This document shows positions 11,363-31,589 of a DNA stretch of 38,984 nucleotides, piece after piece. Location: the NCBI GenBank assembly GCA_016933985.1, contig JAFGTU010000087.1, positions 1-38,984 on the forward strand, read 5' to 3'. The notes beneath the pieces are model-generated. The model had not been told where the DNA came from, made no database searches, and saw only the letters and a list, made by a program, of their open reading frames with translations. The stretch comes from Sedimentisphaerales bacterium. GTDB taxonomy: Bacteria; Planctomycetota; Phycisphaerae; Sedimentisphaerales; Anaerobacaceae. Positions within the stretch are counted from its first letter, which is position 1. Each line of letters starts with the position of its first letter. Position numbers and translations under genes: made by a program.

Positions 11363-12739
11363 TTACTTGATATTGTGCCTTCGCAGCTTGTTGTATAAGG
11401 CTCGACGGCTGATGCCCAACAAGTCGGCGGCTTGCTTGCGGTTGTTGTCTGTTGCGGCAAGTGCGCGAACGACCATTTCCCGTTCCACTTCGTTCAGAGG
11501 CGTGCCAAGTTCGAAAGTCACTTTTGTGGGGATACGCTTGCCGGGCCTGAAACGGGGAGGAAGATGGCTCGGCAGCAGCACTTCGCCTTCGCATACCAAG
11601 ACTGAGCGCTGGATCACATTCTTAAGCTCGCGCACATTGCCCGGCCAATCGTACACCTCCAGCAGGCTGATGCATTCCGGAGCAATTCCCAAGATGCTCT
11701 TTTGGAACGATTCATTGAACCGTTTTAGAAACTCGTCAATCAGTAGCACAATGTCCCCTCCTCGTTCTCGAAGCGGGGGCATGACAATGCGGAAGACATC
11801 AAGACGGTAGTACAGATCCTTGCGAAAAATACCTTGCTGGACAAGGTTGGGGAGATTCTGGTTGGATGCCGCAACCAGCCGGGCATCGGTCGAGATGGTC
11901 GTCTTTCCTCCGAGTCGATGGAATTTCTTGTGCTCGATCAATCGGAGCAGGCTTACCTGCACTTTTTGGTCAACCGTTGATATCTCGTCTAAGAAGATAG
12001 TTCCGTCCCGGGCCTCTTCAAACTTGCCTTCACGTCGCGTCAGAGCTCCGGTAAATGCCCCCTTTTCGTGACCGAATAGTTCACTGCCCACAAGCTCCGA
12101 GGGCAAAGCTCCCAGGTTGACAGCGACGTATGGGCCGTTGTTGCGTTCACTTTGTTTGTGTATGGCCTGCGCGGCGAGGTCCTTACCGGTGCCTGTTTCG
12201 CCCATAAGCAGGATAGGGATGTCGGTAGCCGCGGCCTGTCTGATCTGTCTGTACACCGTTTGCATGACTTCGGATTGACCGATGAATTCCTCGAATCGCA
12301 CCGTCCGTCTCTTGGTTTCCAAGAATAGATTCGTGCCATATACGGGGCGCTTCTCAAGAGCAGTCATAATCAGGAGCTTGAGTTCCTTATCGCTTATCGG
12401 GAGCTTGGCATATTGGTAGGTGCCAGCTTTAAGGGCCGACATCGCAGTTCCAATGTCACCCGGTTCAACCAGGAAAAGAATCTGGGTCATCGGGCTGTTT
12501 GCCGTGATGACCTCCAGCATCTGTAGCCCATCCGTCCGGTCCTGCTCGAATGAGGCGCTGGTCACAATCAATATGTCGTATGGGCTTGATTCGAACTTCT
12601 CAAGGACCCGGTCGATACTTGGCTCCAGATGCACGTCCGCGCTATTGTCTTTGAACAGGGTTCTGAGCCGGGCTGCGAGATCGCTTGAATTATCAACGGC
12701 GATAATGCGAATCTTCTCTTGTCTGGAATCTGTTTTCAT
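11363..12739 (-). CDS. Sigma54-dependent activator with degenerate receiver (NtrC family)
   Basis: 458 residues in the order receiver (~8-125), AAA+ (~150-385), Fis-type HTH (~415-458). The AAA+ part is complete: Walker A GETGTGKD, sigma54-contact loop KGAFTGAL, Walker B GTIFLDEI and arginine region FRKDLYYRLDVF. The HTH is RKQAADLLGISRRALYNKLRR. The receiver is abnormal: where the phospho-acceptor Asp should stand the sequence is ILIVTSAS, and the first acidic pair is DN, although a Lys-Pro-like KLP remains. Activation is therefore probably not by a histidine kinase, and none is nearby. Its start is 10 bases after mscS, so it ends the trehalose operon; the sigma54 promoter just downstream is the obvious target. 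Confidence 0.92.
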   Translation of the reverse strand: MKTDSRQEKIRIIAVDNSSDLAARLRTLFKDNSADVHLEPSIDRVLEKFESSPYDILIVTSASFEQDRTDGLQMLEVITANSPMTQILFLVEPGDIGTAMSALKAGTYQYAKLPISDKELKLLIMTALEKRPVYGTNLFLETKRRTVRFEEFIGQSEVMQTVYRQIRQAAATDIPILLMGETGTGKDLAAQAIHKQSERNNGPYVAVNLGALPSELVGSELFGHEKGAFTGALTRREGKFEEARDGTIFLDEISTVDQKVQVSLLRLIEHKKFHRLGGKTTISTDARLVAASNQNLPNLVQQGIFRKDLYYRLDVFRIVMPPLRERGGDIVLLIDEFLKRFNESFQKSILGIAPECISLLEVYDWPGNVRELKNVIQRSVLVCEGEVLLPSHLPPRFRPGKRIPTKVTFELGTPLNEVEREMVVRALAATDNNRKQAADLLGISRRALYNKLRRHNIK

Positions 12740-12749
12740 CGCAAATCTT

Positions 12750-13862
12750 TTACTTCTTCCTGCCTCGCCTGTTGTTGGGGGCCGCGTTATCCTGCGGAGA
12801 AGGGCTCTCTTCCGGGGGATGCAGGTCGGCCCTAACGCGTGGCAGCGCCTGCGGGTATTTGGTCTTGATGAAATCGATCAGTTTCTCTCTGACTTCACAG
12901 CGCAGGGTCCAGGCCGCCGAGGCGTCCGCGGCGCTCATCAAAGCTCTAAGCTCCATTGTTCGGTCTGAGGCGTTGGTGACCTGCAGCGTGCAGACCTTGC
13001 CGTCCCAGTGTTCTGATTTTTTCAGCATGTTGCCAAGTTCCTCTCTAATTGCCTCGACAGGCACCGTGTAGTCGGTATATACAAAAACGGTCCCGAGTAT
13101 GTCCGCGGAGGTCCGTGTCCAGTTCTGAAACGGCTTTTCGATAAAATAGGTTATGGGCACGATGAGACGCCTCAGATCCCATATCTTGACGACAACGTAG
13201 CTCAGCGTTATCTCCTCGATGCGGCCCCATTCGTTTTCGACTATTACGACGTCGTCAACCCGGATAGGCTGGGTAATCGCTATCTGAATGCCGGCGATGA
13301 ACGTGGCTATCGTCCGCTGAGCGGCCATGCCTACTACGATGCCGACCACTCCGGCGGAGGCCAGAATTGTCGTCCCGAGCTGCCGGACCCTGTCGAATGT
13401 CATAAGCATCGTTCCGAAGGCCAGGATGCATACAACAACGATGACGATACGCTTCAAGACTCTGAATTGCGTGTGGATCTTTCGCGCCTTCAAGTTGTCT
13501 TTTACGCCCACATCGAAACGGGCTACGACATAATCTTCCAGGACATAAGTCATTCGGATTAGGAGCCAGGCGACAAGACCTATCAAGAGCAGGGCAATCA
13601 CATGCTCGGCTACCTCAGGCACGTGGGGCTTCATATTGGGCAGTTTCCCGACCACACGCACCACAAGAACGATGACTATCCACTGCAACGGCCTGTAGCA
13701 GTGGTTAACGACCGCGTTGTCCAGGGCTGCCCTTGTATGTTTGGTCAGGTGGCGGACGATCCTGAATACGAGATAGTGGCCCGCCACTCCGACAAGAAAC
13801 GCTATTCCATACAGCCAGATCAACGGCTGCAGGCCCGCTATGTCTGCTAACATTCTTCCCAT
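12750..13862 (-). CDS. mscS: MscS-family small-conductance mechanosensitive channel
   Basis: The ATG at 13862 is chosen because GGGGG lies 7 bases upstream and the protein then begins MGRMLADIAGLQPLIWLYGIAF directly in the first membrane helix; the track start adds 20 unneeded residues. 370 residues with four or five membrane segments. The pore-lining helix is LGTTILASAGVVGIVVGMAAQRTIATFIAGI, followed by the MscS beta domain (ITQPIRVDDVVIVENEWGRIEEI, IVPITYFIEKPFQNWT) and a cytoplasmic alpha/beta domain. Such channels release solutes on hypo-osmotic shock. Its place after two trehalose-synthesis genes makes functional sense: accumulate trehalose under high osmolarity, vent it on downshift. 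Confidence 0.9.
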   Translation of the reverse strand: MGRMLADIAGLQPLIWLYGIAFLVGVAGHYLVFRIVRHLTKHTRAALDNAVVNHCYRPLQWIVIVLVVRVVGKLPNMKPHVPEVAEHVIALLLIGLVAWLLIRMTYVLEDYVVARFDVGVKDNLKARKIHTQFRVLKRIVIVVVCILAFGTMLMTFDRVRQLGTTILASAGVVGIVVGMAAQRTIATFIAGIQIAITQPIRVDDVVIVENEWGRIEEITLSYVVVKIWDLRRLIVPITYFIEKPFQNWTRTSADILGTVFVYTDYTVPVEAIREELGNMLKKSEHWDGKVCTLQVTNASDRTMELRALMSAADASAAWTLRCEVREKLIDFIKTKYPQALPRVRADLHPPEESPSPQDNAAPNNRRGRKK

Positions 13863-13975
13863 ATCGAGTCCCCCTGACCAAAGACACAACAATGCACCCT
13901 CCGACGCGGCTGCAAAAGCCAATTACTACGAATCCCGGTGTTTTCCAAAAACTGCATGGTCTTGCGCCTCCCGAT

Positions 13976-15187
13976 TCACCCGTTCATTATCGAGTTCAGC
14001 ATGTACAGATAATCTGAGAGCAGCCGGGTGATAAGGAACTCTTTTCTGACCTTTTCTCTGGCCTTCTCGCCTACGGCTTTGGCCTTATCAGGGTTTTGCA
14101 GAATATCGATGATGCGCTCTGCAAATCCTTCGTTATCCTGGGGCTCGACGAGAAAGCCGCTTCGTCCGTCGTCAATCTGATAAGGTATTCCGCCTACATT
14201 CGAGGCAACGACCGGCGTGCCTTTCCACAAAGCCTCCGTCACGCAGAGGCAAAAACCTTCTCTTATGGACTTCTGTATTATCACGCTGGAGAATCTTTGG
14301 ACGGAATTGACCAGCGTTTCATTATTGCCCACTACGAAAACGATATCTTTAGAGTTGACGAGTTTGTTTGCCTTGCGCTGGACTTTTCTGTACATCTGCA
14401 GGCCTTCGGGGTCGTCACTGGCCACATTGTAGCAGAAGACCAGCCTGCAATCGACCTTCTCCTTCACCCGTTTGAACACATCAATAACGCCCTCCGGGTC
14501 CTTCCACGGATCCAGCCTGGAGACCTGGGCAATAACAGGCTTGTCGGTCGGGATGCCGGCTTTCTCAATGTACTCAAGCATTGTCTTCTCAGAGATATCC
14601 CTGTTCTTCTCACTGAGCGGGTTGATTGCAGGGAACATCAGCCGCTGGTCAACCGGCAAGTCCTCTTTGAAGTACTTCTCGCTCGACATAACCACCTGGT
14701 CGTACTTCAGCAGGAACCCTTTGAGGAAGTCCCACAATCCATCGTGCGGATTGGTCAGGTCGATGTGGCATCGCCATATCCACGGCTGACGCTTGCGGTA
14801 AGCCCTTATCAAGGAGAGCGGCTGAGGGTCATGGACTATTACGCAGTCATGCTGAAGGTGCGTGAACCGCGAGAAATTGTCGTTCACCTGCAAATATGTC
14901 TGCTTCTTCTTCTCGGTCAGATTCAGATCGGCCCCCTGTAGGGCGTTGTGAAAACTCTTGGTGATCTCGAAGAACTCCTGACTTCCGTGGAGTATCCTCC
15001 AGCCGGCGTTAATCCCGACGTCATTCATCAACTGCACAAGGGAATACAGGATTTCGGCAACGCCGCCGCCCTGGTACGTGGCGTTTACGTGAACAATATG
15101 CTTTCCGTAGAGGCCTTTGGCCCTGTTGTAAATCTCGGCTAATCTTGTATCGGGTACGATGTGGCGGAAGTCTTCAAGCCGTATCAT
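13976..15187 (-). CDS. treT: Trehalose synthase TreT-type glycosyltransferase (GT4)
   Basis: 403 residues of a GT-B retaining glycosyltransferase. Signature stretches are HIVHVNATYQGGGVAEIL at the start, VIVHDPQPL, WIWRCHIDLT, VSRLDPWKDP in the C-terminal Rossmann domain, the SIREGFCLCVTEALWKGTPVV nucleotide-sugar motif and GGIPYQIDDG. These are typical of TreT, which joins NDP-glucose and glucose to make trehalose; the family also includes clock-like archaeal homologues. Its start overlaps the end of otsAB by 14 bases, so the two are translationally coupled. Which nucleotide sugar is used cannot be told. Confidence 0.88.
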   Translation of the reverse strand: MIRLEDFRHIVPDTRLAEIYNRAKGLYGKHIVHVNATYQGGGVAEILYSLVQLMNDVGINAGWRILHGSQEFFEITKSFHNALQGADLNLTEKKKQTYLQVNDNFSRFTHLQHDCVIVHDPQPLSLIRAYRKRQPWIWRCHIDLTNPHDGLWDFLKGFLLKYDQVVMSSEKYFKEDLPVDQRLMFPAINPLSEKNRDISEKTMLEYIEKAGIPTDKPVIAQVSRLDPWKDPEGVIDVFKRVKEKVDCRLVFCYNVASDDPEGLQMYRKVQRKANKLVNSKDIVFVVGNNETLVNSVQRFSSVIIQKSIREGFCLCVTEALWKGTPVVASNVGGIPYQIDDGRSGFLVEPQDNEGFAERIIDILQNPDKAKAVGEKAREKVRKEFLITRLLSDYLYMLNSIMNG

Positions 15188-17387
15188 TCGAGCCTCCTGA
15201 TAGTCTGTTGAGTAACATTCTGATATCTTCTACGTTATCGACGTTGAATCTTGCCTTCGATGCGACAAATCCCACTCGCACGGAGTATGCCTCATCGGGA
15301 AGCACGCTGAACATCTCTTCATCGGTATAATCATCGCCCGCCGCCAGAATGAAGTCCCAGTCTCGACTTCTCGCCCAGTGTTCGGCGGCCAGCCCCTTGT
15401 TGACAACCTGGCTTTTGACCTCCAGTATCTTGCTGCCCTCAAAAACGCCGACATCGAGATTCGCGGTGAGGTTGAGAAGGGCGGCCTTTAGCTCCTGGAC
15501 TCTGACGTAGGCAAGCTCCGGATTCGCCCTTCGGTAATGCCAGACCAATGAAAAATCCTTCTCTTCCACGGTCGCTCCCGCGGTGCGGTCGGTGTAAAGA
15601 TCGAGGATGGGCCTGATGCTTTTCTTCCAGGTCATCTCGAAGGGCGCCTGGCTATGCCAATTTCGCCCTTCGTCCCTAATCCATCCCCCATGCTCAGCAA
15701 CCAGTCCGCTGCCAAGGTCGCCCAGCCAGTTTTCCAAAGTAGTCTTATCACGCCCGCTGATGATGACCACCGTATTTCTTGGATCGCCTGACAAACGCCG
15801 CAGCAGGTCAACGATCTCATCGTCCGGCCCCGCCTCTGCAGGTTTGCCTTTGAAGCCGACGAGCGTGCCGTCGTAATCAAGCAGAAACAATCGCTTGTTG
15901 CTCTTGTGATAATCTTCGGCCAACTTCTCTCTCGTTGAACCGGAAAGGCGTTTCGCGAACATCTGTTCCTGGGTCTTTTTTATACCGCATAGAGCGCCCA
16001 GAAAATCCTGGCTCCAGCGCGAGACGCTGTAGCGCCGCAGCCTTTCCTGCATGACTTTGTTTCGTTCAAGTTGCTCGGCCGGCGGCATCTCCAGAGCCTT
16101 CTTGATGGCTCTCACAATCGCACCTTTGTCGCAAGAATTGACTACCAGCGATTCCCCAAGCTCACTTGCGGCGCCGGTCATTTCACTCAAAACCAGCACG
16201 CCGGGTTTATCCCCCTTCGCCGCAATGAACTCCTTCGCTATAAGGTTCATGCCGTCTCGCAAAGGCGTCACTAATGCCACGTCCGAAACGTTGTAAAGGG
16301 CAGTCAATTCCACAAAAGGCAGGGACCGATACAAGTACCACACAGGTATATACCCCATCGTTCCGTATTCGCCGTTAATCCTTCCAACCAACTGCTCAAG
16401 CCTGCTCCTCATCTCCTTGTAGTCCTCGACGCCCGTTCTCGTCGGCACCGCCACCATAATCAGAGTGACTGCGCCTCTGTATTGCGGATTTTCCGAGAGA
16501 AACAGGTCGAATGCTTCCAGCCGCTCGATGATTCCTTTAGAGTAGTCCAGCCTGTCGATCGACAAAATTATCTTTCGATCCTCAAGCCTCTTTCGTATCT
16601 TGTTCGCTTCCTTTGCAACGTCGGGCTCTTCGATTGCCCGCTCGTACTTTTCATAATCAATACCCATTGGGAAGGCATCGACCTTGATAACACGCCTGTC
16701 AACCTTGACGTTTCCCAGGGTGTGTTCCAGCCCGGTGATTCGCGAGACGCTGCTGAGAAAGTGCCTGACGTAGTCATACGTGTGAAAACCTATTAGGTCC
16801 GCTCCCAGCAGCCCTCTTAGTATCTGCTCGCGCCACGGCAGAAGGCGAAAGAGCTCGAATGACGGCCACGGTATGTGAAGAAAGAATCCGATCTCCAGGT
16901 CAGGCATCCTCTGCCGTAGAAGCTCGGGAAGCAGCATTAGCTGGTAATCATGCACCCATACACAATCCCCTGATGCGGCGATCTTCATCACCTCATCACA
17001 AAATGCCTCGTTCACCTGCCTGTAGATCTTCCAGAACCGCGACTCATAAACGGCGCGCCTTGGAAAATAGTGAAACAGAGGCCAGATAGTCCTGTTACAG
17101 AACCCCTGATAATATTCCTCCATTTGCTTTCTTGAGATAAACACCGGATGACAGTTTTCAGCGGCGAGCCGCTCTATGATCTTATCCTTCTCCTCGGCTT
17201 TGAGCTTCTCATTCGCCACGCCGGGCCAGCCCACCCAGATCCGCTCACTTGACTGCGGCAGTGATGACAGGCCCACCGCAAGTCCGCCCGGACTTGGGCG
17301 AAAATACACGTCTCCCGTCTTCCTTATCGTGTCAAGCGGCAATCTGTTAGCAACCACAACCAGGCGTCCCAATTTACCGTCCTCCAT
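15174..17387 (-). CDS. otsAB: Bifunctional trehalose-6-phosphate synthase/phosphatase
   Basis: From the ATG at 17387 the protein is 737 residues and begins MEDGKLGRLVVVANRLPL, the normal N-terminus of this family; the track start at 17570 adds 61 non-conserved residues. The synthase half (GT20, ~1-470) shows SPGGLAVGL, VWVHDYQLMLLPELL, FFLHIPWPS, IDRLDYSKGI and TPLRDGMNLIAKEF. The phosphatase half (HAD, ~495-735) shows LLDYDGTLVGF, VIISGRD, AEHGGW and GDDYTDEEMF. It makes trehalose-6-phosphate from UDP-glucose and glucose-6-phosphate, then dephosphorylates it. The ribosome site is weak. First gene of the minus-strand operon otsAB-treT-mscS-activator. Confidence 0.93.
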   Translation of the reverse strand: MEDGKLGRLVVVANRLPLDTIRKTGDVYFRPSPGGLAVGLSSLPQSSERIWVGWPGVANEKLKAEEKDKIIERLAAENCHPVFISRKQMEEYYQGFCNRTIWPLFHYFPRRAVYESRFWKIYRQVNEAFCDEVMKIAASGDCVWVHDYQLMLLPELLRQRMPDLEIGFFLHIPWPSFELFRLLPWREQILRGLLGADLIGFHTYDYVRHFLSSVSRITGLEHTLGNVKVDRRVIKVDAFPMGIDYEKYERAIEEPDVAKEANKIRKRLEDRKIILSIDRLDYSKGIIERLEAFDLFLSENPQYRGAVTLIMVAVPTRTGVEDYKEMRSRLEQLVGRINGEYGTMGYIPVWYLYRSLPFVELTALYNVSDVALVTPLRDGMNLIAKEFIAAKGDKPGVLVLSEMTGAASELGESLVVNSCDKGAIVRAIKKALEMPPAEQLERNKVMQERLRRYSVSRWSQDFLGALCGIKKTQEQMFAKRLSGSTREKLAEDYHKSNKRLFLLDYDGTLVGFKGKPAEAGPDDEIVDLLRRLSGDPRNTVVIISGRDKTTLENWLGDLGSGLVAEHGGWIRDEGRNWHSQAPFEMTWKKSIRPILDLYTDRTAGATVEEKDFSLVWHYRRANPELAYVRVQELKAALLNLTANLDVGVFEGSKILEVKSQVVNKGLAAEHWARSRDWDFILAAGDDYTDEEMFSVLPDEAYSVRVGFVASKARFNVDNVEDIRMLLNRLSGGSNDTA

Positions 17388-17496
17388 CAGAGTTGATAAT
17401 ATGACTGCAACCAGACAGGACGAGCGGGCGCAGAAAGGGCAAATTTGACACTGCGATGCTTGTTTTTCCTTGCTGAAATACCATTGTTCTATGCTA

Positions 17497-17524
17497 AGTT
17501 TACCGCATCCTCGCAAGATTGCAA
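17497..17524 (-). promoter_or_regulatory. Candidate sigma70 promoter of the otsAB operon
   Basis: Minus-strand TTGCAA, 16-base spacer, TAAACT, giving a leader of about 100 bases before otsAB. Sub-optimal spacing and -10; assigned by eye. Confidence 0.35.
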
Positions 17525-17678
17525 GTTCATTGGCAAATACTAAACAAGGACCTTGAATAATCCCGCCCAATCGGGTATTCTTACAATTCAGAAATGGCAG
17601 GGTTGTCGATCCCTTGCGGCCGCTCAGCGGCAGTTATGTGCGTTCTGTCAACTGAAGGAAGGAAAGGTAAAGAACAAG

Positions 17679-24349: not shown

Positions 24350-24630
24350 GCCACAAAGCCACAGAAATATTAGCCACGAAGGCACTAAGGTACGAAGGGC
24401 CAGTGAGATATAAGCCACAAAGGCACAAAGGCAACTATTGCTGTTTCTTTGTGTCTTCGTGCCTTAGTGGCAAAGGACAAAGACAATTATTTCTGTTTCT
24501 TTGTGTCTTTGTGCCTTCGTGGCTAATTAGCCCGCTCAAAAAAATGAAAAAATCTAATTCTTTTTCTTTGTGCCTTTGTGCCTTCGTGGCTATTTAGCCC
24601 CTGAAAAAAAAATGAAAAAATCTGATTTTA
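24350..24630. repeat. Cluster of GCCACGAAGGCAC / TTTGTGCCTTCGTGGC repeats
   Basis: At least five copies of a ~25-base unit in both orientations: GCCACGAAGGCACTAAGG and GCCACAAAGGCACAAAGG forward, then three copies of TTTCTTTGTG(T/C)CTT(C/T)GTGCCTT(C/A)GTGGC reversed, so long hairpins are possible. The last two copies are followed by near-identical AAAAATGAAAAAATCT tracts. The element is of a type seen between genes in many environmental genomes. It fills the gap between pilC and the pilin promoter. Confidence 0.75.
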
Positions 24631-24737: not shown

Positions 24738-25163
24738 ATGAAAAGCAGAAAAGGTTTCACACTGATCGAGCTGATGGTCGTAGTTCTGATCGTCGGAATT
24801 CTGGCCGCAGTGGCCATTCCAATCCTTCGCGGTAGAATCGACGCCGCTAAGTGGTCCGAAGGAAAGGCAATGCTCGGCACCATCGCAACCGCGATTAGGG
24901 CGTATCATGCCGAACACGGGACAACCGGGACCGCACCGACGACTCTGGACGTTGGAGTTACGGGCTTAGGTTTTGACGTTGCAGGCGGGGACCTGGACGG
25001 GACGTACTTCTCCGCTGGTGATTTCGCCCTGACCGCCGTAACAATGGACCCCTTGACTTTCACAATCACGTGCACAGCAGGCGGCGGCGGTGGTTCCGGT
25101 GAGCCCCCGACCACTCCTGCGAGTTATACTCTGAATGAGTTGGGGACCTTCGGCGCGCTGTAA
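24738..25163 (+). CDS. Type IV pilin-like protein (probable major pilin)
   Basis: 141 residues with a short leader MKSRKG, then FTLIELMVVVLIVGILAAVAIP, the class III prepilin cleavage and assembly helix with Glu5. The globular part begins AAKWSEGKAMLGTIATAIRAYH and ends in a Gly/Pro-rich GGGGGSGEPP linker and SYTLNELGTFGAL. It has its own promoter upstream and a strong terminator downstream, which is the pattern expected for a highly expressed fibre subunit. A paralogue is encoded at 25809-26246. Prepilin peptidase is not in the window. Confidence 0.9.
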   Translation: MKSRKGFTLIELMVVVLIVGILAAVAIPILRGRIDAAKWSEGKAMLGTIATAIRAYHAEHGTTGTAPTTLDVGVTGLGFDVAGGDLDGTYFSAGDFALTAVTMDPLTFTITCTAGGGGGSGEPPTTPASYTLNELGTFGAL

Positions 25164-25274: not shown

Positions 25275-25757
25275 ATGGCCTTGAGTCAATCTAAATCCCG
25301 TGCCGGCATTACCCTGATAGAGGTTATGTCGGCAATTGTCATAATCGCGATTGCCGTCTTGGGGGCATCGGCCTACAGGTACTACTCGACTCTCGATGGT
25401 CGAAAGGCCGTTCTGCAGAGCACGGCGGCCCGCGTCGCCCTGCTGCTCAATGAGAACTGGCGAGGCCGGGGCTACGACCATATTACCGATTTCGACCCCG
25501 TCTCCAACCTCAGTTTGGATATGGCAATCGCCCCCTCGGGCATCGGCCCGGATTACGCAACGGGATTCACCGCCTTAGGGCAATATGAAATTACCGTCAA
25601 CGACTCGCGCTTCTGGGCGGCACTTTCATACAGGACCGATTCGGCAGACCTGCGGACCCTCAATACGGTCATCGCCTGGGCCGAGCGCCCGAACGACGCC
25701 GGCGGGGTTATTTCCATGCCCAGGACGTTCAGGCTGACGACGTTCGTGACGCAATAA
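25275..25757 (+). CDS. PilV-like minor prepilin
   Basis: 160 residues. Prepilin motif AGITLIEVMSAIVIIAIAVLGASAYRYYS, with Gly-1 and Glu5 in place and a basic leader MALSQSKSRAG. The remainder (TAARVALLLNENWRGRGYDHI, then YEITVNDSRFWAALSY) resembles PilV/minor pseudopilins, which initiate or tip fibres. GGGGAGGAAGGT precedes the ATG. It starts 35 bases after the pilin terminator, so it depends on read-through or an unseen promoter. Confidence 0.8.
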   Translation: MALSQSKSRAGITLIEVMSAIVIIAIAVLGASAYRYYSTLDGRKAVLQSTAARVALLLNENWRGRGYDHITDFDPVSNLSLDMAIAPSGIGPDYATGFTALGQYEITVNDSRFWAALSYRTDSADLRTLNTVIAWAERPNDAGGVISMPRTFRLTTFVTQ

Positions 25758-25788
25758 TTAGTTTTGAGTTTTGAGTTTAAGTTTTGAG
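25756..25788. repeat. GTTTTGAGTTTTGAG intergenic repeat, copy 1
   Basis: AATTAGTTTTGAGTTTTGAG then TTTAAGTTTTGAG, directly after the PilV-like stop. A near-identical copy follows the next pilin gene (26250-26284), so the repeats bracket that gene. Confidence 0.65.
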
Positions 25789-25808: not shown

Positions 25809-26246
25809 ATGACAAACAACAGGCGTACATATCGCTTCGGGTTTACACTGATCGAGCTGATGGTCGTCATCCTTATAGTGGCGATCCTTGCCGCTTCCGC
25901 CATTGCGCGCTATCGCGGTCGAGTCGATGCGGTGAGGTGGTCGGAGGGAAAGGTGATGCTCGGAACGATTGCGACGGCATTGCGGGCATACGCCGGCGAG
26001 AAGGGATGGAACGGGGCGAACCCTACGGATATATTCGGCAGCGGGCAGACGGAGCTTGGCTTTGAGCCGGGCGACCTGACGGGGCGTTATTTCGCCGACG
26101 GCGATTTCCAGATCGACGCGGTGAATATCAACGCGCAGCCCGTTACGTTTACAATCAGGTGCACGGCGGGCACAGGCATCGAGCCGCCCACCATCCCTTC
26201 GGGATATACGTTGGACCAGAGCGGCCATTTTGCCGCAATACCGTGA
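25809..26246 (+). CDS. Second type IV pilin-like protein, paralogue of the 24738 pilin
   Basis: 145 residues: leader MTNNRRTYRFG, helix FTLIELMVVILIVAILAASAIARYRG, then AVRWSEGKVMLGTIATALRAYAGE. It aligns end to end with the first pilin (WSEGKxMLGTIATAxRAY; FTIxCTAG; PPTxPxxYTLxxxGxFxA), so the two are a duplication. It lacks an own obvious promoter or terminator, suggesting lower expression as an alternative or minor subunit. Confidence 0.87.
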   Translation: MTNNRRTYRFGFTLIELMVVILIVAILAASAIARYRGRVDAVRWSEGKVMLGTIATALRAYAGEKGWNGANPTDIFGSGQTELGFEPGDLTGRYFADGDFQIDAVNINAQPVTFTIRCTAGTGIEPPTIPSGYTLDQSGHFAAIP

Positions 26247-26249
26247 GAG

Positions 26250-26284
26250 AATTAGTCTTGAGTTTTGAGGTTTAAGTTTTGAGT
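26250..26284. repeat. GTTTTGAGTTTTGAG intergenic repeat, copy 2
   Basis: AATTAGTCTTGAGTTTTGAG then GTTTAAGTTTTGAG, immediately downstream of the second pilin gene; differs from copy 1 by one substitution and one inserted base over the shared part. Confidence 0.65.
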
Positions 26285-26308: not shown

Positions 26309-26851
26309 GTGATACAGAATAAACGAATATTTCGATCAGGTGCGCGGCGTGCGGGATTCACCATCACCGAGCTGATGGTCACGGTGGTTATCGCGGTCAT
26401 CGTGCTCTTTGCCATTGGCGTGGTCATAGCCGACAGCGTTCGCGGGTGGCAGAAGACATACGATCAGGTCTATGCCGACGTGCGGACCGACAGCTACGTC
26501 GTCAGGGCGGCCTTCGACGGGATTGTCCGCAAGGCCGTCGGCTACATGCACCAGGTCGATCCCGCAGGGACCTGGCTCGAGGTCTATTATTACTCCAACA
26601 ACTACGCCCCTCAAATTGACCGTTATGCGCGCATCTTCTATGCCAGCGGGATGCTGATGGTTGACTACGGGACTTATACCCTGGGCGCGAACCCGCCCAC
26701 GTCGAGCCTGAGGACCGATATCATCTGCGAGAACGTGTCCTCGTGCGTCTTCAGGGACGACGGCCGCTCGGCACAGATGATCCTGACCTTAGACGACGGC
26801 TCCCAGAGCGTTGAAGTAACAACCTCGGCCGTCATGCACAACGGATCATAA
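26309..26851 (+). CDS. PilW/GspJ-like minor prepilin
   Basis: 180 residues from a GTG start. The leader is basic (MIQNKRIFRSGARRAG), then FTITELMVTVVIAVIVLFAIGVVIADSVRGWQ with Glu at position 5, a prepilin helix. The rest (VRTDSYVVRAAFDGIVRKAV; LRTDIICENVSSCVFRDDGRSAQMILTLDDG) has the layout of PilW/GspJ proteins. No family certainty beyond the N-terminus. The 200 bases after it contain the first copy of an 80-bp direct repeat. Confidence 0.8.
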   Translation: MIQNKRIFRSGARRAGFTITELMVTVVIAVIVLFAIGVVIADSVRGWQKTYDQVYADVRTDSYVVRAAFDGIVRKAVGYMHQVDPAGTWLEVYYYSNNYAPQIDRYARIFYASGMLMVDYGTYTLGANPPTSSLRTDIICENVSSCVFRDDGRSAQMILTLDDGSQSVEVTTSAVMHNGS

Positions 26852-26921
26852 CCCGCAGCGATATTCTTTCATTGTGAGGGAGCGACCAAATCCATAAATG
26901 GGGGTGGTGCTGTTATGCATT

Positions 26922-27001
26922 CGGCCAAAGAAGGCCCTCGAATCAGCCGATAAAACCTCTGTTCGCAGTTAACGGCAAATTGGAAAAACCAAAATCAGCA
27001 G
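26922..27001 (+). repeat. 80-bp imperfect direct repeat, copy A
   Basis: Identical to 28560-28590 for the first 31 bases (CGGCCAAAGAAGGCCCTCGA...), then diverging without gaps; by my count 14 mismatches in 80. Positions equivalent to the downstream gene's GGAGG and ATG read GAAAA and ATC here. Confidence 0.85.
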
Positions 27002-27051
27002 TCGGCTTTGGCGAGGCGCATTTGAGCCTGTTAAGAAGCAGCACAGCAGCG

Positions 27052-28635
27052 ATGTCATACGCAGTCCCGGCAACGGCCCTTGCCCTGGTGCTGTTGCCGC
27101 AACTGGTCTTGTATTCCCATATTACGGACGATGCCTACATCAGCTTTCGATATGCGGATCGCCTGGCCTCCGGGCAGGGGCTAACATTCAATCCGGGCCA
27201 GAGGGTCGAGGGATTCTCGAATCCGCTGTGGACGCTCTTGATAGCTGGGGCGGTCTGCCTGACCCCGTTTTCCGCACCCGAAATCGCAAGATTCCTGGGA
27301 GTCGTCTGTTCGCTGCTCACTGTTATCTGCGCGTGGCGGATCCTCAGCAAAGACCAGATAGACCCGGGCGCACGCATCGCAAACTTCGCCCTGTTCTGTG
27401 CGATGCTCCTGTCCAACCCGGGATTTCATGTCTATGCGACGGCCGGGCTTGAAGGACCGCTCCTGATGTTTCTGCTCACGGTGGGTGTGGCCCTGTCTCT
27501 GAAAGAGGCCGGTGCGTGGCGCTGCCTCGCTGGTTTTGCCTTTGGTCTTGCAAGTATAACCAGGCCGGAAGGACTCCTCTACGGCCTCTTATGGTTTGCC
27601 TTCACGTTTAAGCTCAGGTCAAGCGCCGCATGGTCCCCGCGTCGTGAATTGGCGCGCTTGGCGTGCCTGCTGCTGCCCTGGCTGGCGTACGAGCTGTTCA
27701 GATGGCTTTACTTCGGCGCATTTCTGCCGAATACCTTCGCCGCCAAACCCCCGGGAGTATTTGGCGGCGATACGCTCGCAGTGCGGTACTTATGGCCCTG
27801 GGTTATGTCGTTGGGAGGTCTTCTCGCTCTATCCCCGCTGCTCCTGCTGCGAGTTGATTATTCCAGGCAAAGCAAGGTATTGTTCAGGGCCTCTGCCGGG
27901 CCATTAATTGCAGCAGCGCTCTTCGCCATGTATGCCCGCGGCGACTGGATGCCGTTCGGGAGATTTGTCGTCCCTGTCTGGCCGCTAATCTGCCTGGCTG
28001 TAGCTGCCTGGCTTCACTCGGCTATCGAGACACTCAAAGGAAATTCCTTTCTCAGATTCCCGGGGGCGGCAAAGTGTATAGTGGCATTGATGCTCGTACT
28101 CACATCCATGCTGACCTGGGCCGATCCACTCATCGAATACATAGACAACAAAGGCATAAACATGTTGATGAGAGGGCATGACCAGATTGCAGCAGGTCAA
28201 TGGCTCTCGGAAAACGTCAGAGAAGGGACCACCGTGGCGACCATACGATTAGGCGGGATCAGCTACGCCGCGCCGGACTTAGTATTCTGGGACCTGAACG
28301 GACTCACCGACAAAGAGCAGGCTGTATTTGTCTCTCAGGGCAGACCAGGCGGCCCCCGAAGCGACCCCATCCTCAATCGATTTCCGCAAATACTCGCAAT
28401 GGTCGAGTATGCCGGATCACAAGGCCCCAAAGCAGTGGCCGATATCCGCAAATGGATAGATGAGCACTACTCGTACATCCGTTCCGTTCCTCAGGGCAGG
28501 AGCGGCGCGTTTGACTTATGGATATTGAAGCGCTGCCCGGATGTTATGAAGCAGGCAACCGGCCAAAGAAGGCCCTCGAATCAGCCGATAGAACCTGTGC
28601 CGACAATTAACGGTAATTTGGGAGGACGAAAATGA
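27052..28635 (+). CDS. GT-C fold membrane glycosyltransferase
   Basis: The track begins at a TTG (26980) inside repeat copy A; the ATG at 27052 is preferred, giving 527 residues that begin MSYAVPATALALVLLPQLVLY, the first membrane helix. Then comes ITDDAYISFRYADRLASGQGL and FNPGQRVEGFSNPLWTLL, the pattern of GT-C glycosyltransferases related to arabinofuranosyl/mannosyl transferases, where an Asp in the first loop (DDAY) is catalytic. About nine to eleven further helices and a soluble C-terminal part follow. These enzymes use polyprenyl-phosphate sugars at the outer face of the membrane. The last ~20 residues are encoded by repeat copy B; the stop overlaps the next start (ATGA). Its place in a pilus locus suggests modification of pilins, but that is inference. 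Confidence 0.85.
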   Translation: MSYAVPATALALVLLPQLVLYSHITDDAYISFRYADRLASGQGLTFNPGQRVEGFSNPLWTLLIAGAVCLTPFSAPEIARFLGVVCSLLTVICAWRILSKDQIDPGARIANFALFCAMLLSNPGFHVYATAGLEGPLLMFLLTVGVALSLKEAGAWRCLAGFAFGLASITRPEGLLYGLLWFAFTFKLRSSAAWSPRRELARLACLLLPWLAYELFRWLYFGAFLPNTFAAKPPGVFGGDTLAVRYLWPWVMSLGGLLALSPLLLLRVDYSRQSKVLFRASAGPLIAAALFAMYARGDWMPFGRFVVPVWPLICLAVAAWLHSAIETLKGNSFLRFPGAAKCIVALMLVLTSMLTWADPLIEYIDNKGINMLMRGHDQIAAGQWLSENVREGTTVATIRLGGISYAAPDLVFWDLNGLTDKEQAVFVSQGRPGGPRSDPILNRFPQILAMVEYAGSQGPKAVADIRKWIDEHYSYIRSVPQGRSGAFDLWILKRCPDVMKQATGQRRPSNQPIEPVPTINGNLGGRK

Positions 28636-28639
28636 GCAG
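28560..28639 (+). repeat. 80-bp imperfect direct repeat, copy B
   Basis: Contains the end of the GT-C gene and the GGAGG ribosome site plus ATG (28632) of the following PilX-like gene. Copy A lies 1638 bases upstream. Confidence 0.85.
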
Positions 28640-29924
28640 AAGAACGTTTCGACAGGCGAACAAAAAGGGCTCTATCCTGGCCTTAGTTGTTATTGTTATT
28701 GTGTTTCTTTCGGTGATTGGCGTGGGCATGCTGCAATGCGGGCTCCAGGCCCGCGTCTATGCCGCCCGGCAGGCAAATGAGATCGCCGCCCAGGTCGCCG
28801 CCGACGCAGGCCTGGAGAGGGCGGTCTGGCAGTTGAATCAGAATGTCCAGGCCAAATACTCCGCCGAGACGCTGCCGAAGCAGGCCGACCTCCTCCTGGC
28901 CAATTCCCAGGCAACCTACAGCTACGAAATAGCAATCCCGAACGCAGGCACGCTCGACCTTGCCGGCGACGCCCAAAGCCTTCAATTAGTTGACCCCTTC
29001 ACCGTCAGGCTCTCTTCCGCACAGAGATACACAATCAGGTCCGTCGGAAAATCCGGAAGCGCCCAAAAGGTGTTATACGGGACCGTCAGATTAAAGGGCC
29101 TCTTCGACAGCGCGATTCTTTCAAAAGGCAAAATATCGCTGATGCCGAATACATTGATAAGCGGCTACAACTCAGCCGACCCGACAGATACCGATATAGA
29201 CGTTGCGATCGGAACAATTAGCACCCTTGACGATAGCATTACCCTAGGCCCCGGAAGCGTCGTTGAGGGCGACGTCTTCGTCGGCCTCGGCGGCAATCCC
29301 CTGGACGTTATCGGCGCCGGAGGAACAATTAACGGCCAGAAGTACGCCTTGACCGAGACGATTCAGTTCCCCGTCATAACCATCCCCCTATTGGCGGACT
29401 ACGGAACAGTCATCACCGCCAAGGGCGAGACGCTGAAGCTCACCCCAGCCGATAACGGGACATACAACGAGATTAAGCTCTCATCGCAGGCGGGCATACC
29501 CGGCCGGCTCGAAATAAACGGCAGCGTTGTCCTGCATCTCACGGGCGACATTAATCTCGGAAACGACGCAGAGATCGTCATAAAAAACGGCTCATCCCTG
29601 GTCCTCTACGCCGACAGCGATATATCCACCGGCAACTCGGCGGGATTTGTCAATGAAAACACGCCTCCCCAGACGCTCAAGGTATTCGCCACAGGCGAAG
29701 ACCCACAGGACTTCGAGCTCAAGGCAAAGAGCAGCGTCTTCGGCGAGGTGTATGCGCCAAATGCCGATATCGAGCTCTACCCCAACGCGGAATTGTACGG
29801 GGCGATTGTGGGCAACAGCGTTTCGATAAAAAGCGGCGGGACCTTCATGTACGATGAAGCCCTCCGGAACGTCGAGCCGGAAGATGAAGGCGCCCGCTTC
29901 ACAATCGAAAGATGGTGGGAGTAG
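28632..29924 (+). CDS. Large PilX-like pilus protein, paralogue 1
   Basis: 430 residues. Basic start MSRRTFRQANKKGS, one membrane helix ILALVVIVIVFLSVIGVGML, then ARVYAARQANEIAAQVAADAGLERAVW, the pattern of PilX N-terminal domains. Residues ~155-430 are strand-rich with regularly spaced turns (SVVEGDVFVGLGGNPLDVIG; GSVVLHLTGDINLG; GEVYAPNADIELYPNAELYGAIVG), suggesting a right-handed beta-helix. It ends YDEALRNVEPEDEGARFTIERWWE, nearly the same as the end of the protein at 30237-31589. PilX-like proteins act in pilus priming; the beta-helix implies a surface tip. ATGA overlap with the preceding gene. Confidence 0.82.
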   Translation: MSRRTFRQANKKGSILALVVIVIVFLSVIGVGMLQCGLQARVYAARQANEIAAQVAADAGLERAVWQLNQNVQAKYSAETLPKQADLLLANSQATYSYEIAIPNAGTLDLAGDAQSLQLVDPFTVRLSSAQRYTIRSVGKSGSAQKVLYGTVRLKGLFDSAILSKGKISLMPNTLISGYNSADPTDTDIDVAIGTISTLDDSITLGPGSVVEGDVFVGLGGNPLDVIGAGGTINGQKYALTETIQFPVITIPLLADYGTVITAKGETLKLTPADNGTYNEIKLSSQAGIPGRLEINGSVVLHLTGDINLGNDAEIVIKNGSSLVLYADSDISTGNSAGFVNENTPPQTLKVFATGEDPQDFELKAKSSVFGEVYAPNADIELYPNAELYGAIVGNSVSIKSGGTFMYDEALRNVEPEDEGARFTIERWWE

Positions 29925-30236: not shown

Positions 30237-31589
30237 ATGGCAAGAAAGCGCTTCTCAAAATCAGCGAAGTCGGCCTCCGTAATGGCATTGGTGCTCTTCG
30301 CCATTGTGCTGCTGCTCTTGAGCGGGATCGGGGTACTGAGTATCGGCCAGACCAGCCGCATCTTCTCCATACGCGACGCTGCAGAAGTCTCGGCACGCTC
30401 GGCGGCAGACGCCGGAATCTCAAAGGCCCTCTCGACAATGAACACCCGGCTCAAGGCCGGAACCTGGACCGACAACACGTGGATATGGGAGTTTCTAAAG
30501 ACGCTGCCCAATTCCAATGGTTCGCAATACAGCTACTTTGTGTACAAGCCGAATAAAATCTACGGAGATGTGATGCCGACCGGCGACGATGCCTTGATAG
30601 ATTTTGTTATCGCGGCATCAGCAGAAAAGAACGATTACCTGATCACCTCACTCGGCAGATACAACACCGCTCGAAAGGTTATCTATGCGACGGCGAGGCT
30701 GAAAGGATGCGGCGATAGCTGCATCATCGTTCGCGACAGTGTGACGCTGAAGGCCGGCACCACCGTTGACGGACGCGACTCGAGAGACGCGTCGGTCGAT
30801 GGGACGGCTGAAGTCGGAACCATCAGCACCCTTCCGGACAAGGTCACTTTGAACAACGGCGTATATATAGACGGGAATGTTCAGGTCGGCTTGGACGGCG
30901 ATCCTGCCGTCGTCGTAAAAGACCTCGGCGCTACCGTCACAGGAATGATGTACCCCCTACCTGAGGAGCCGGAGTTTCCTTACATATATCCGCCCGCACT
31001 GCCCGACTATCGTCCGAACGCGTTAGAGGCAAAGGGCACGGAGTTGCATATCACCGCGGCCAATAACGGCACGTACAGCATGATCGATCTCGCGAGCACG
31101 GGATTAGGCCCGGGAGAAATCCCCAGGACAGGCAGACTGATAGTGGATAGCGGGGACGTGGTGCTGCACCTGACCAACACCGGCAACAAGAATTCAATTT
31201 CCATGGGTGTCAACTGCGAGATTGTCATAATGCCCGGGGCGACCCTCAATCTCTACGTGGACGGGAATATTGTCGCGGGCAACAGCATGGGATTCAACAA
31301 TATGGGCACACCGCCTGACTTGAAAATCTGGGGTACATGGACGGAAACCACCCCGACCAATACTTTCTGTCAACAATGGGACTTGAAAGCCAAGAGCGAG
31401 TATTTCGGCCAGATCTACGCCCCTGCCGCCGAAGTCACGGTCAATAACGGAAGCGTTATATACGGGTCGTTTACAGCGTACCAATTTACTACGATGAACA
31501 GCGGCACCATTTATTACGATGCCGCGCTGCGCGACGTTGATCCCGACGATCAGGGCGTCCGCTTTGAGCTCAGACGCTGGTACGAGTAG
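30237..31589 (+). CDS. Large PilX-like pilus protein, paralogue 2
   Basis: The ATG at 30237 is used rather than the track start at 30084: AAGGGG lies upstream and the product begins MARKRFSKSAKSASVMALVLFAIVLLLLSGIGVL, one membrane helix. 450 residues. RSAADAGISKALSTMN matches PilX N-termini; from ~170 onward it aligns with paralogue 1 (GTISTLPDKVTL, VQVGLDGDPAVVV, FPYIYPPALPDY, GDVVLHLTN, DLKAKSEYFGQIYAP) and ends YDAALRDVDPDDQGVRFELRRWYE. The shared beta-rich block and terminus mark an old duplication. It has its own promoter and leader. Confidence 0.82.
   Translation: MARKRFSKSAKSASVMALVLFAIVLLLLSGIGVLSIGQTSRIFSIRDAAEVSARSAADAGISKALSTMNTRLKAGTWTDNTWIWEFLKTLPNSNGSQYSYFVYKPNKIYGDVMPTGDDALIDFVIAASAEKNDYLITSLGRYNTARKVIYATARLKGCGDSCIIVRDSVTLKAGTTVDGRDSRDASVDGTAEVGTISTLPDKVTLNNGVYIDGNVQVGLDGDPAVVVKDLGATVTGMMYPLPEEPEFPYIYPPALPDYRPNALEAKGTELHITAANNGTYSMIDLASTGLGPGEIPRTGRLIVDSGDVVLHLTNTGNKNSISMGVNCEIVIMPGATLNLYVDGNIVAGNSMGFNNMGTPPDLKIWGTWTETTPTNTFCQQWDLKAKSEYFGQIYAPAAEVTVNNGSVIYGSFTAYQFTTMNSGTIYYDAALRDVDPDDQGVRFELRRWYE

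Follow-up and report, generated by a model that had tools for sequence, protein, structure and literature searches.

An AftB-like glycosyltransferase gene in a planctomycete pilus operon: very probable insertion with duplication of an 80-nt target

The window, by which we mean the whole 38,984-nt stretch of Sedimentisphaerales DNA analysed here (contig JAFGTU010000087.1), carries a pilus operon in which the genes for a PilW-like minor pilin and a PilX-like protein are separated by a gene for a putative membrane glycosyltransferase of the GT-C type, and the latter is bracketed by two copies of an 80-nt direct repeat. The window genome (G000) is compared below with two genomes of the same genus, G034, a Sedimentisphaerales MAG (Phycisphaerae, Planctomycetota), and G035. 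The features of the locus, worded according to the reading that we favour, are as follows.

26309..26851, + strand: PilW-like minor pilin gene, the upstream neighbour; its orthologues adjoin pilX in G034 (56%) and G035 (59%)
26852..26993, + strand: probable ancestral pilW-pilX spacer, which runs for 142 nt between the pilW stop and the dead pilX start (ATC, 26994-26996); the G035 spacer is nearly as long (139 nt) and resembles it significantly in sequence
26922..27001, + strand: copy A of the repeat, probably the end of the old spacer and the pilX start, with decayed ribosome site (GGAAAAA) and start (ATC)
27002..28559, + strand: probable inserted segment (1558 nt), comprising the GT-C gene together with its ribosome-binding site but lacking the native stop; delimited by the extent of similarity to the G034 orthologue
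27022..28635, + strand: AftB-like GT-C membrane glycosyltransferase gene (predicted), 537 aa, TTG start after GCGAGG; the start aligns with the ATG of the G034 orthologue
28558..28635, + strand: 3' end of the GT-C gene, apparently repeat-derived, consisting of about 25 codons (TGQRRPSNQPIEPVPTINGNLGGRK) plus TGA; four relatives lack it, and disorder is predicted for the encoded residues
28560..28639, + strand: copy B of the repeat, which carries the functional ribosome site (GGGAGGA) and start codon of pilX
28632..29924, + strand: PilX-like gene (DUF7305 / ice-binding-like adhesive domain); its 68% orthologue directly follows pilW in G035

The ATG of pilX overlaps the TGA of the GT-C gene (ATGA), and the open reading frame of the latter, when delimited mechanically, begins earlier, at a TTG at 26980. 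Alignment of the two repeat copies requires no gaps and yields 66 identical positions out of 80; the leading 31 positions (26922-26952 and 28560-28590) are the same in both, all 14 differences fall within the remaining 49 nt, and the similarity ends abruptly at both edges. An earlier note on this DNA had described the ungapped repeat, its 31 identical leading bases and its roughly 14 mismatches, with the GT-C gene as the only gene between the copies, and this description is accurate, as is its observation that copy A has GAAAA and ATC at the positions of GGAGG and ATG in copy B: in the wider context, GGAAAAA and ATC stand against the GGGAGGA and ATG of the PilX-like gene. By chance alone, about 1e-10 exact 31-mer repeats would be expected in a sequence as long as the window, and a search of the whole 4.4-Mb assembly identifies the 80-nt pair as the sole copies; a 30-nt partial match on contig C286 (E 0.07) was inspected and looks like chance. 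A search of 88 further genomes of the family for the 31-mer, with up to 3 mismatches allowed, gave no hit. Compared to an even spread of the 14 changes, the clean first 31 nt have a P of 4.5e-4 (0.0066 for any run of at least 31), and their identity may reflect either constraint or gene conversion at a later time.

The GT-C product scores above the cut-off in no Pfam or NCBIfam family, the nearest being Glyco_transf_22 and AftB (family NF041481), the latter with 36.7 of 1050 bits and thus far under the curated cut-off. A profile search of the PDB nevertheless yields a match to AftB with an E of 9e-14, and an AlphaFold2 model of modest confidence (mean pLDDT 60) also has AftB as its best match among solved structures, followed by the oligosaccharyltransferases (STT3), ArnT and PglB, all of these matches, that to AftB included, having E values of about 1e-5. 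AftB, the terminal beta-(1->2)-arabinofuranosyltransferase of Mycobacterium (PDB 9dlf/9dlh), is hence the best match both in sequence and in fold, and the two proteins have an aspartate pair in common: the DD at residues 36-37 aligns with that of AftB in such a way that D37 corresponds to D62, which is essential in the mycobacterial enzyme (PMC12041299). With a multi-helix membrane domain and an aspartate in the first outer loop, both of which define the superfamily, the product is, as modelled, an AftB-like GT-C glycosyltransferase.

The gene is rare in the order and in the phylum as sampled. Within the order the GT-C gene occurs in 2 of 161 genomes, those of the window and of G034, and in the latter it lies outside the pilus operon, flanked by a metallo-beta-lactamase-type gene and a long coiled-coil gene, with glycan-type genes a few genes away. 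A broader profile with a looser threshold detects it in five of 392 genomes sampled across the phylum, the window's own included. In the DNA examined around the GT-C gene at 13 related loci, no homologue of the pilus proteins of the window was found.

Residues 4-516 of the product align with the G034 orthologue at 68% identity, and this alignment locates both junctions. On the left, the likeness to the G034 gene starts just past copy A and includes the ribosome site (GAGGTGAAT-ATG in G034, GAGGCGCAT-TTG in the window); on the right, it stops just before copy B, cutting the native C-terminus a few codons before the stop. The native C-termini of four relatives end near the point where the repeat-derived tail of the window protein begins, and this tail (residues 513-537) has a pLDDT below 50 and is predicted to be disordered. 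As judged from these comparisons, the native last codons of the GT-C gene are lost, and about 25 codons and a TGA are now read from copy B; the earlier note had recognised that the end of the gene was taken from the repeat and had put it slightly too short, at about 20 codons.

The same site in relatives is empty. In G035, pilV, pilW and pilX are consecutive with a pilW-pilX spacer of 139 nt, and in G034 pilA, pilV, pilW and pilX follow one another with a spacer of about 66 or 117 nt depending on the choice of the pilX start; in other genomes of the family the gap is at most about 200 nt wherever both ends are readable. In the window, the dead ATC of copy A lies 142 nt beyond the pilW stop. 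The earlier note had named a single-copy empty site as the arrangement expected of an insertion, and this is what the two same-genus genomes provide, both joining pilW directly to pilX and G035 holding a single copy in its spacer; the opposite outcome that it had envisaged, with the GT-C gene at this position in all relatives, is contradicted by its absence from the pilus operon of every relative checked. When the G035 spacer is compared with copy A, 0-3 of 1000 shuffled sequences reach the observed score (z 4.8 for simple shuffles, 3.6 for dinucleotide ones), and the likeness resides mostly in the pilX-proximal 3' 49 nt (z 4.1). By this match, the 3' 49 nt of the repeat derive from the target and not from the donor. 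The similarity of the first 31 nt to the G035 spacer is not significant, and a derivation of these from the DNA downstream of the G034 GT-C gene is unconvincing (43 of 2000 shuffles, among about 20 tests); the target origin of this part of the repeat thus rests on the length of the spacer. Likewise, the G034 spacer alone shows no significant similarity to the repeat, while the adjacency of pilW and pilX there is clear. The G035 spacer (L015, 1362-1500) also contains a GC-rich inverted repeat (GCCCGCCTGCGGCGGGC) that is not seen in the spacer of the window.

Taken together, the empty sites in the congeners, the location of the G034 orthologue outside the operon, the presence of a decayed pilX start in copy A and of a functional one in copy B, and the tail read from the repeat make it very probable, as far as sequence comparison can tell, that the GT-C gene was inserted into the pilW-pilX spacer with a target duplication of 80 nt. 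After the split from G035, the gene would have entered the spacer accompanied by its ribosome-binding site but lacking its final few codons and the stop, and 80 nt of target, consisting of the spacer end and the first pilX codons, would have been doubled. Copy A would then represent the old spacer with the decayed pilX ribosome site and start, and copy B would provide the functioning start of pilX, which may now be translated partly by coupling from the GT-C gene. The suggestion that the original pilX start had been duplicated and had subsequently decayed in copy A gains support from the spacer lengths, 139 nt in G035 against 142 nt to the dead ATC.

A target duplication of 80 nt that comes without transposase, terminal repeats or attC is best explained either by template switching or by tandem duplication and deletion. 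In the first case, to which we assign about an even chance among the mechanisms considered, replication would have switched away from the operon at the pilX start, proceeded along the GT-C gene and then switched back to a point 80 nt upstream of where it had departed; such a course can double a target stretch of any length and needs no transposase. Template switching is known from E. coli, where it produces complex joints with short microhomology and, likewise with no transposase involved, fuses unrelated sequences and doubles stretches nearby (PMC3161906); it was, however, observed in the laboratory, whereas the event in the window is deduced from a single fixed natural product. Template switching leaves no diagnostic mark, and the 5-nt AGCAG found near both ends of the insert is within chance expectation.

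The second case is the strongest of the rival explanations, though we regard it as unlikely. The GT-C gene would once have been located downstream of pilX; a tandem duplication would have joined its 3' end to the spacer, and the first pilX would then have been lost from just past its start to the ribosome site of the GT-C gene, leaving the order repeat, GT-C, repeat, pilX. Ordinary events would in this way account for both junctions, for the missing native stop and for the arbitrary length of the repeat, and PilX-type genes are indeed multiplied in these operons. The scheme nevertheless requires two precise events plus the loss of the original GT-C gene, and within the DNA examined neither congener has a GT-C gene downstream of pilX.

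Insertion as the cargo of a mobile element (transposon, integron or plasmid), with the 80 nt as a target duplication, a recombination site or crossover homology, is improbable. It would suit the direct repeats that bracket the gene and the patchy distribution, but the insert contains the GT-C gene only and no transposase or integrase gene, the longest end-to-end inverted match is 6 nt, and neither copy has an attC consensus (RYYYAAC or GTTRRRY); the genome contains no further copy of the repeat, the 3' part of which matches the target in G035. A length of 80 nt moreover far exceeds that of usual target duplications. Codon use, a comparison that the earlier note had called for, is typical of the window and speaks against a foreign origin, the codon divergence of the GT-C gene being 0.049, among the three lowest of 26 genes, at a GC content of 0.568. 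The notion of a cargo insertion of a glycosyltransferase into a pilus operon therefore survives as regards the insertion, to which the empty sites testify, and lacks support as regards the cargo, given the ordinary codons and the lack of transposase, terminal repeats and attC.

The GT-C genes of the window genome and G034 are conserved (dN 0.22, dS about 1.3, pS 0.62), and their pS is close to that of PilW (0.63) and somewhat lower than that of PilC, PilM and ParA (0.68-0.74). With its ordinary codon use, and with an orthologue divergence in or just below the range of the pilus genes, the sequence data fit the relocation or copying of a GT-C gene already resident in the genus as well as or better than a cargo; transfer of the gene between congeners may instead have occurred. 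The metallo-beta-lactamase-type gene that flanks the G034 gene gives only weak matches (about 22%) in G000 and G035, so that no empty donor site is demonstrable there, and at completeness values of 83% for the window genome and 86% for G035 a second GT-C copy in the former or a GT-C gene elsewhere in the latter could be missed.

That the arrangement is ancestral, with the GT-C gene lost from the operon in G034 and G035, for example by recombination between the repeats, is very improbable. Such recombination would leave a single copy, and the gene is present in G034, the more distant congener: dS from the window genome is 0.93 (G035) and 1.89 (G034) for PilC, and 0.85 and 1.81, respectively, for PilM, placing G035 nearer. 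An insertion would still be needed to explain the repeat itself, however, family genomes beyond the genus also lack the GT-C gene at this site, and the repeat copies are far less diverged than the split between G000 and G035. They differ at 14 of 80 positions (0.175; about 0.20 with Jukes-Cantor correction, and about 0.36 over the 3' 49 nt), an estimate that constraint on copy B renders rough as a measure of age, against a G000-G035 dS of 0.85-1.1; being well under the synonymous divergence, the value indicates that the insertion is probably younger than the split. Least probable of all is that the repeats are two independently conserved regulatory elements before two operon genes, without any insertion: each copy immediately precedes a gene, the 31-nt block is the same in both and GGCC-AAAGAA-GGCC could form a hairpin, but an Rfam search of window and insert returned only a tRNA above the gathering score, a folding z of only -0.4 to -1.2 argues against a structured element, copy A keeps a dead pilX start position, and the absence of the element from the 88 other family genomes runs counter to the independent conservation that the earlier note had considered.

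The operon and its surroundings have further features of their own. A second PilA-like pilin gene, pilA2 (25809-26246), has 61% amino acid identity to pilA1 (24738-25163), and neither the G034 nor the G035 operon has a separate counterpart. It is not a recent copy, as the dS between it and pilA1 (1.7) matches the depth of the genus, and a parallel recent insertion was rejected for it. It is flanked by AGTTTTGAG-type repeats (25756-25785 and 26250-26279); simple repeats like AGTTTTGAG occur scattered through the genomes of G000 and G035, and G034 yielded none. Three diverged copies of a TTTCTTTGTGTCTTTGTGCCTTCGTGGC-type repeat lie upstream of pilA1 (24436-24619). Outside the operon, at 11363-17570, two trehalose-synthesis genes (TreT-like and an OtsA-OtsB fusion) lie beside genes for a mechanosensitive channel and a sigma-54 activator, a grouping reminiscent of an osmotic-stress cluster. 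Two genes in the PilX position encode DUF7305 domains, 28632-29924 (with the ice-binding-like adhesive domain) and 30237-31589, and their relatives are multiplied in many genomes of the family; these genes suggest pilus-associated adhesins.

By analogy, the GT-C enzyme would move a sugar from a polyprenyl-phosphate donor at the outer face of the membrane, perhaps to the co-expressed pilins or adhesins, a role to which we give slightly less than an even chance. The analogue is TfpW of Pseudomonas aeruginosa group IV, a GT-C enzyme likewise encoded among pilin genes, which attaches D-arabinofuranose to pilins and confers protection from pilus-specific phages (PMC11841053). The likeness is one of context; unlike tfpW, the window gene lies between minor-pilin genes after an insertion, and a D-arabinose route was not found. 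The DprE1-type oxidase family PF04030 has no match in the three congener genomes, which are 83-93% complete, while the C. glutamicum control was detected, and this, together with the family score far below the cut-off, also sets the enzyme apart from AftB. D-arabinose as the transferred sugar is consequently doubtful, and the sugar is probably different from that of TfpW. An AftB-like GT-C gene in the pilus operon of an uncultured planctomycete nonetheless offers a testable hint of pilin or adhesin glycosylation, which seems to be unstudied in this group.

Operons grow by the insertion of genes, as comparative genomics has established, and the intermediate steps of such gains are rarely visible. 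Here, as in other cases of operon growth by insertion, a gene has apparently been gained inside an existing operon with overlapping stop and start; in contrast to the usual cases, the target duplication reveals how the neighbour kept its start and the new gene acquired its stop. The locus and its relatives still display the former start and the present one, the stop donated to the new gene and the unoccupied sites, and the event can be ordered relative to a species split. We tentatively propose that the locus may exemplify gene capture in one step and without a transposase, whereby the duplication would preserve the downstream start and copy B would supply a stop, a 25-residue tail from formerly non-coding DNA and the stop-start overlap. 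If common, such one-step capture would offer operons a general way of acquiring genes that are translationally coupled.
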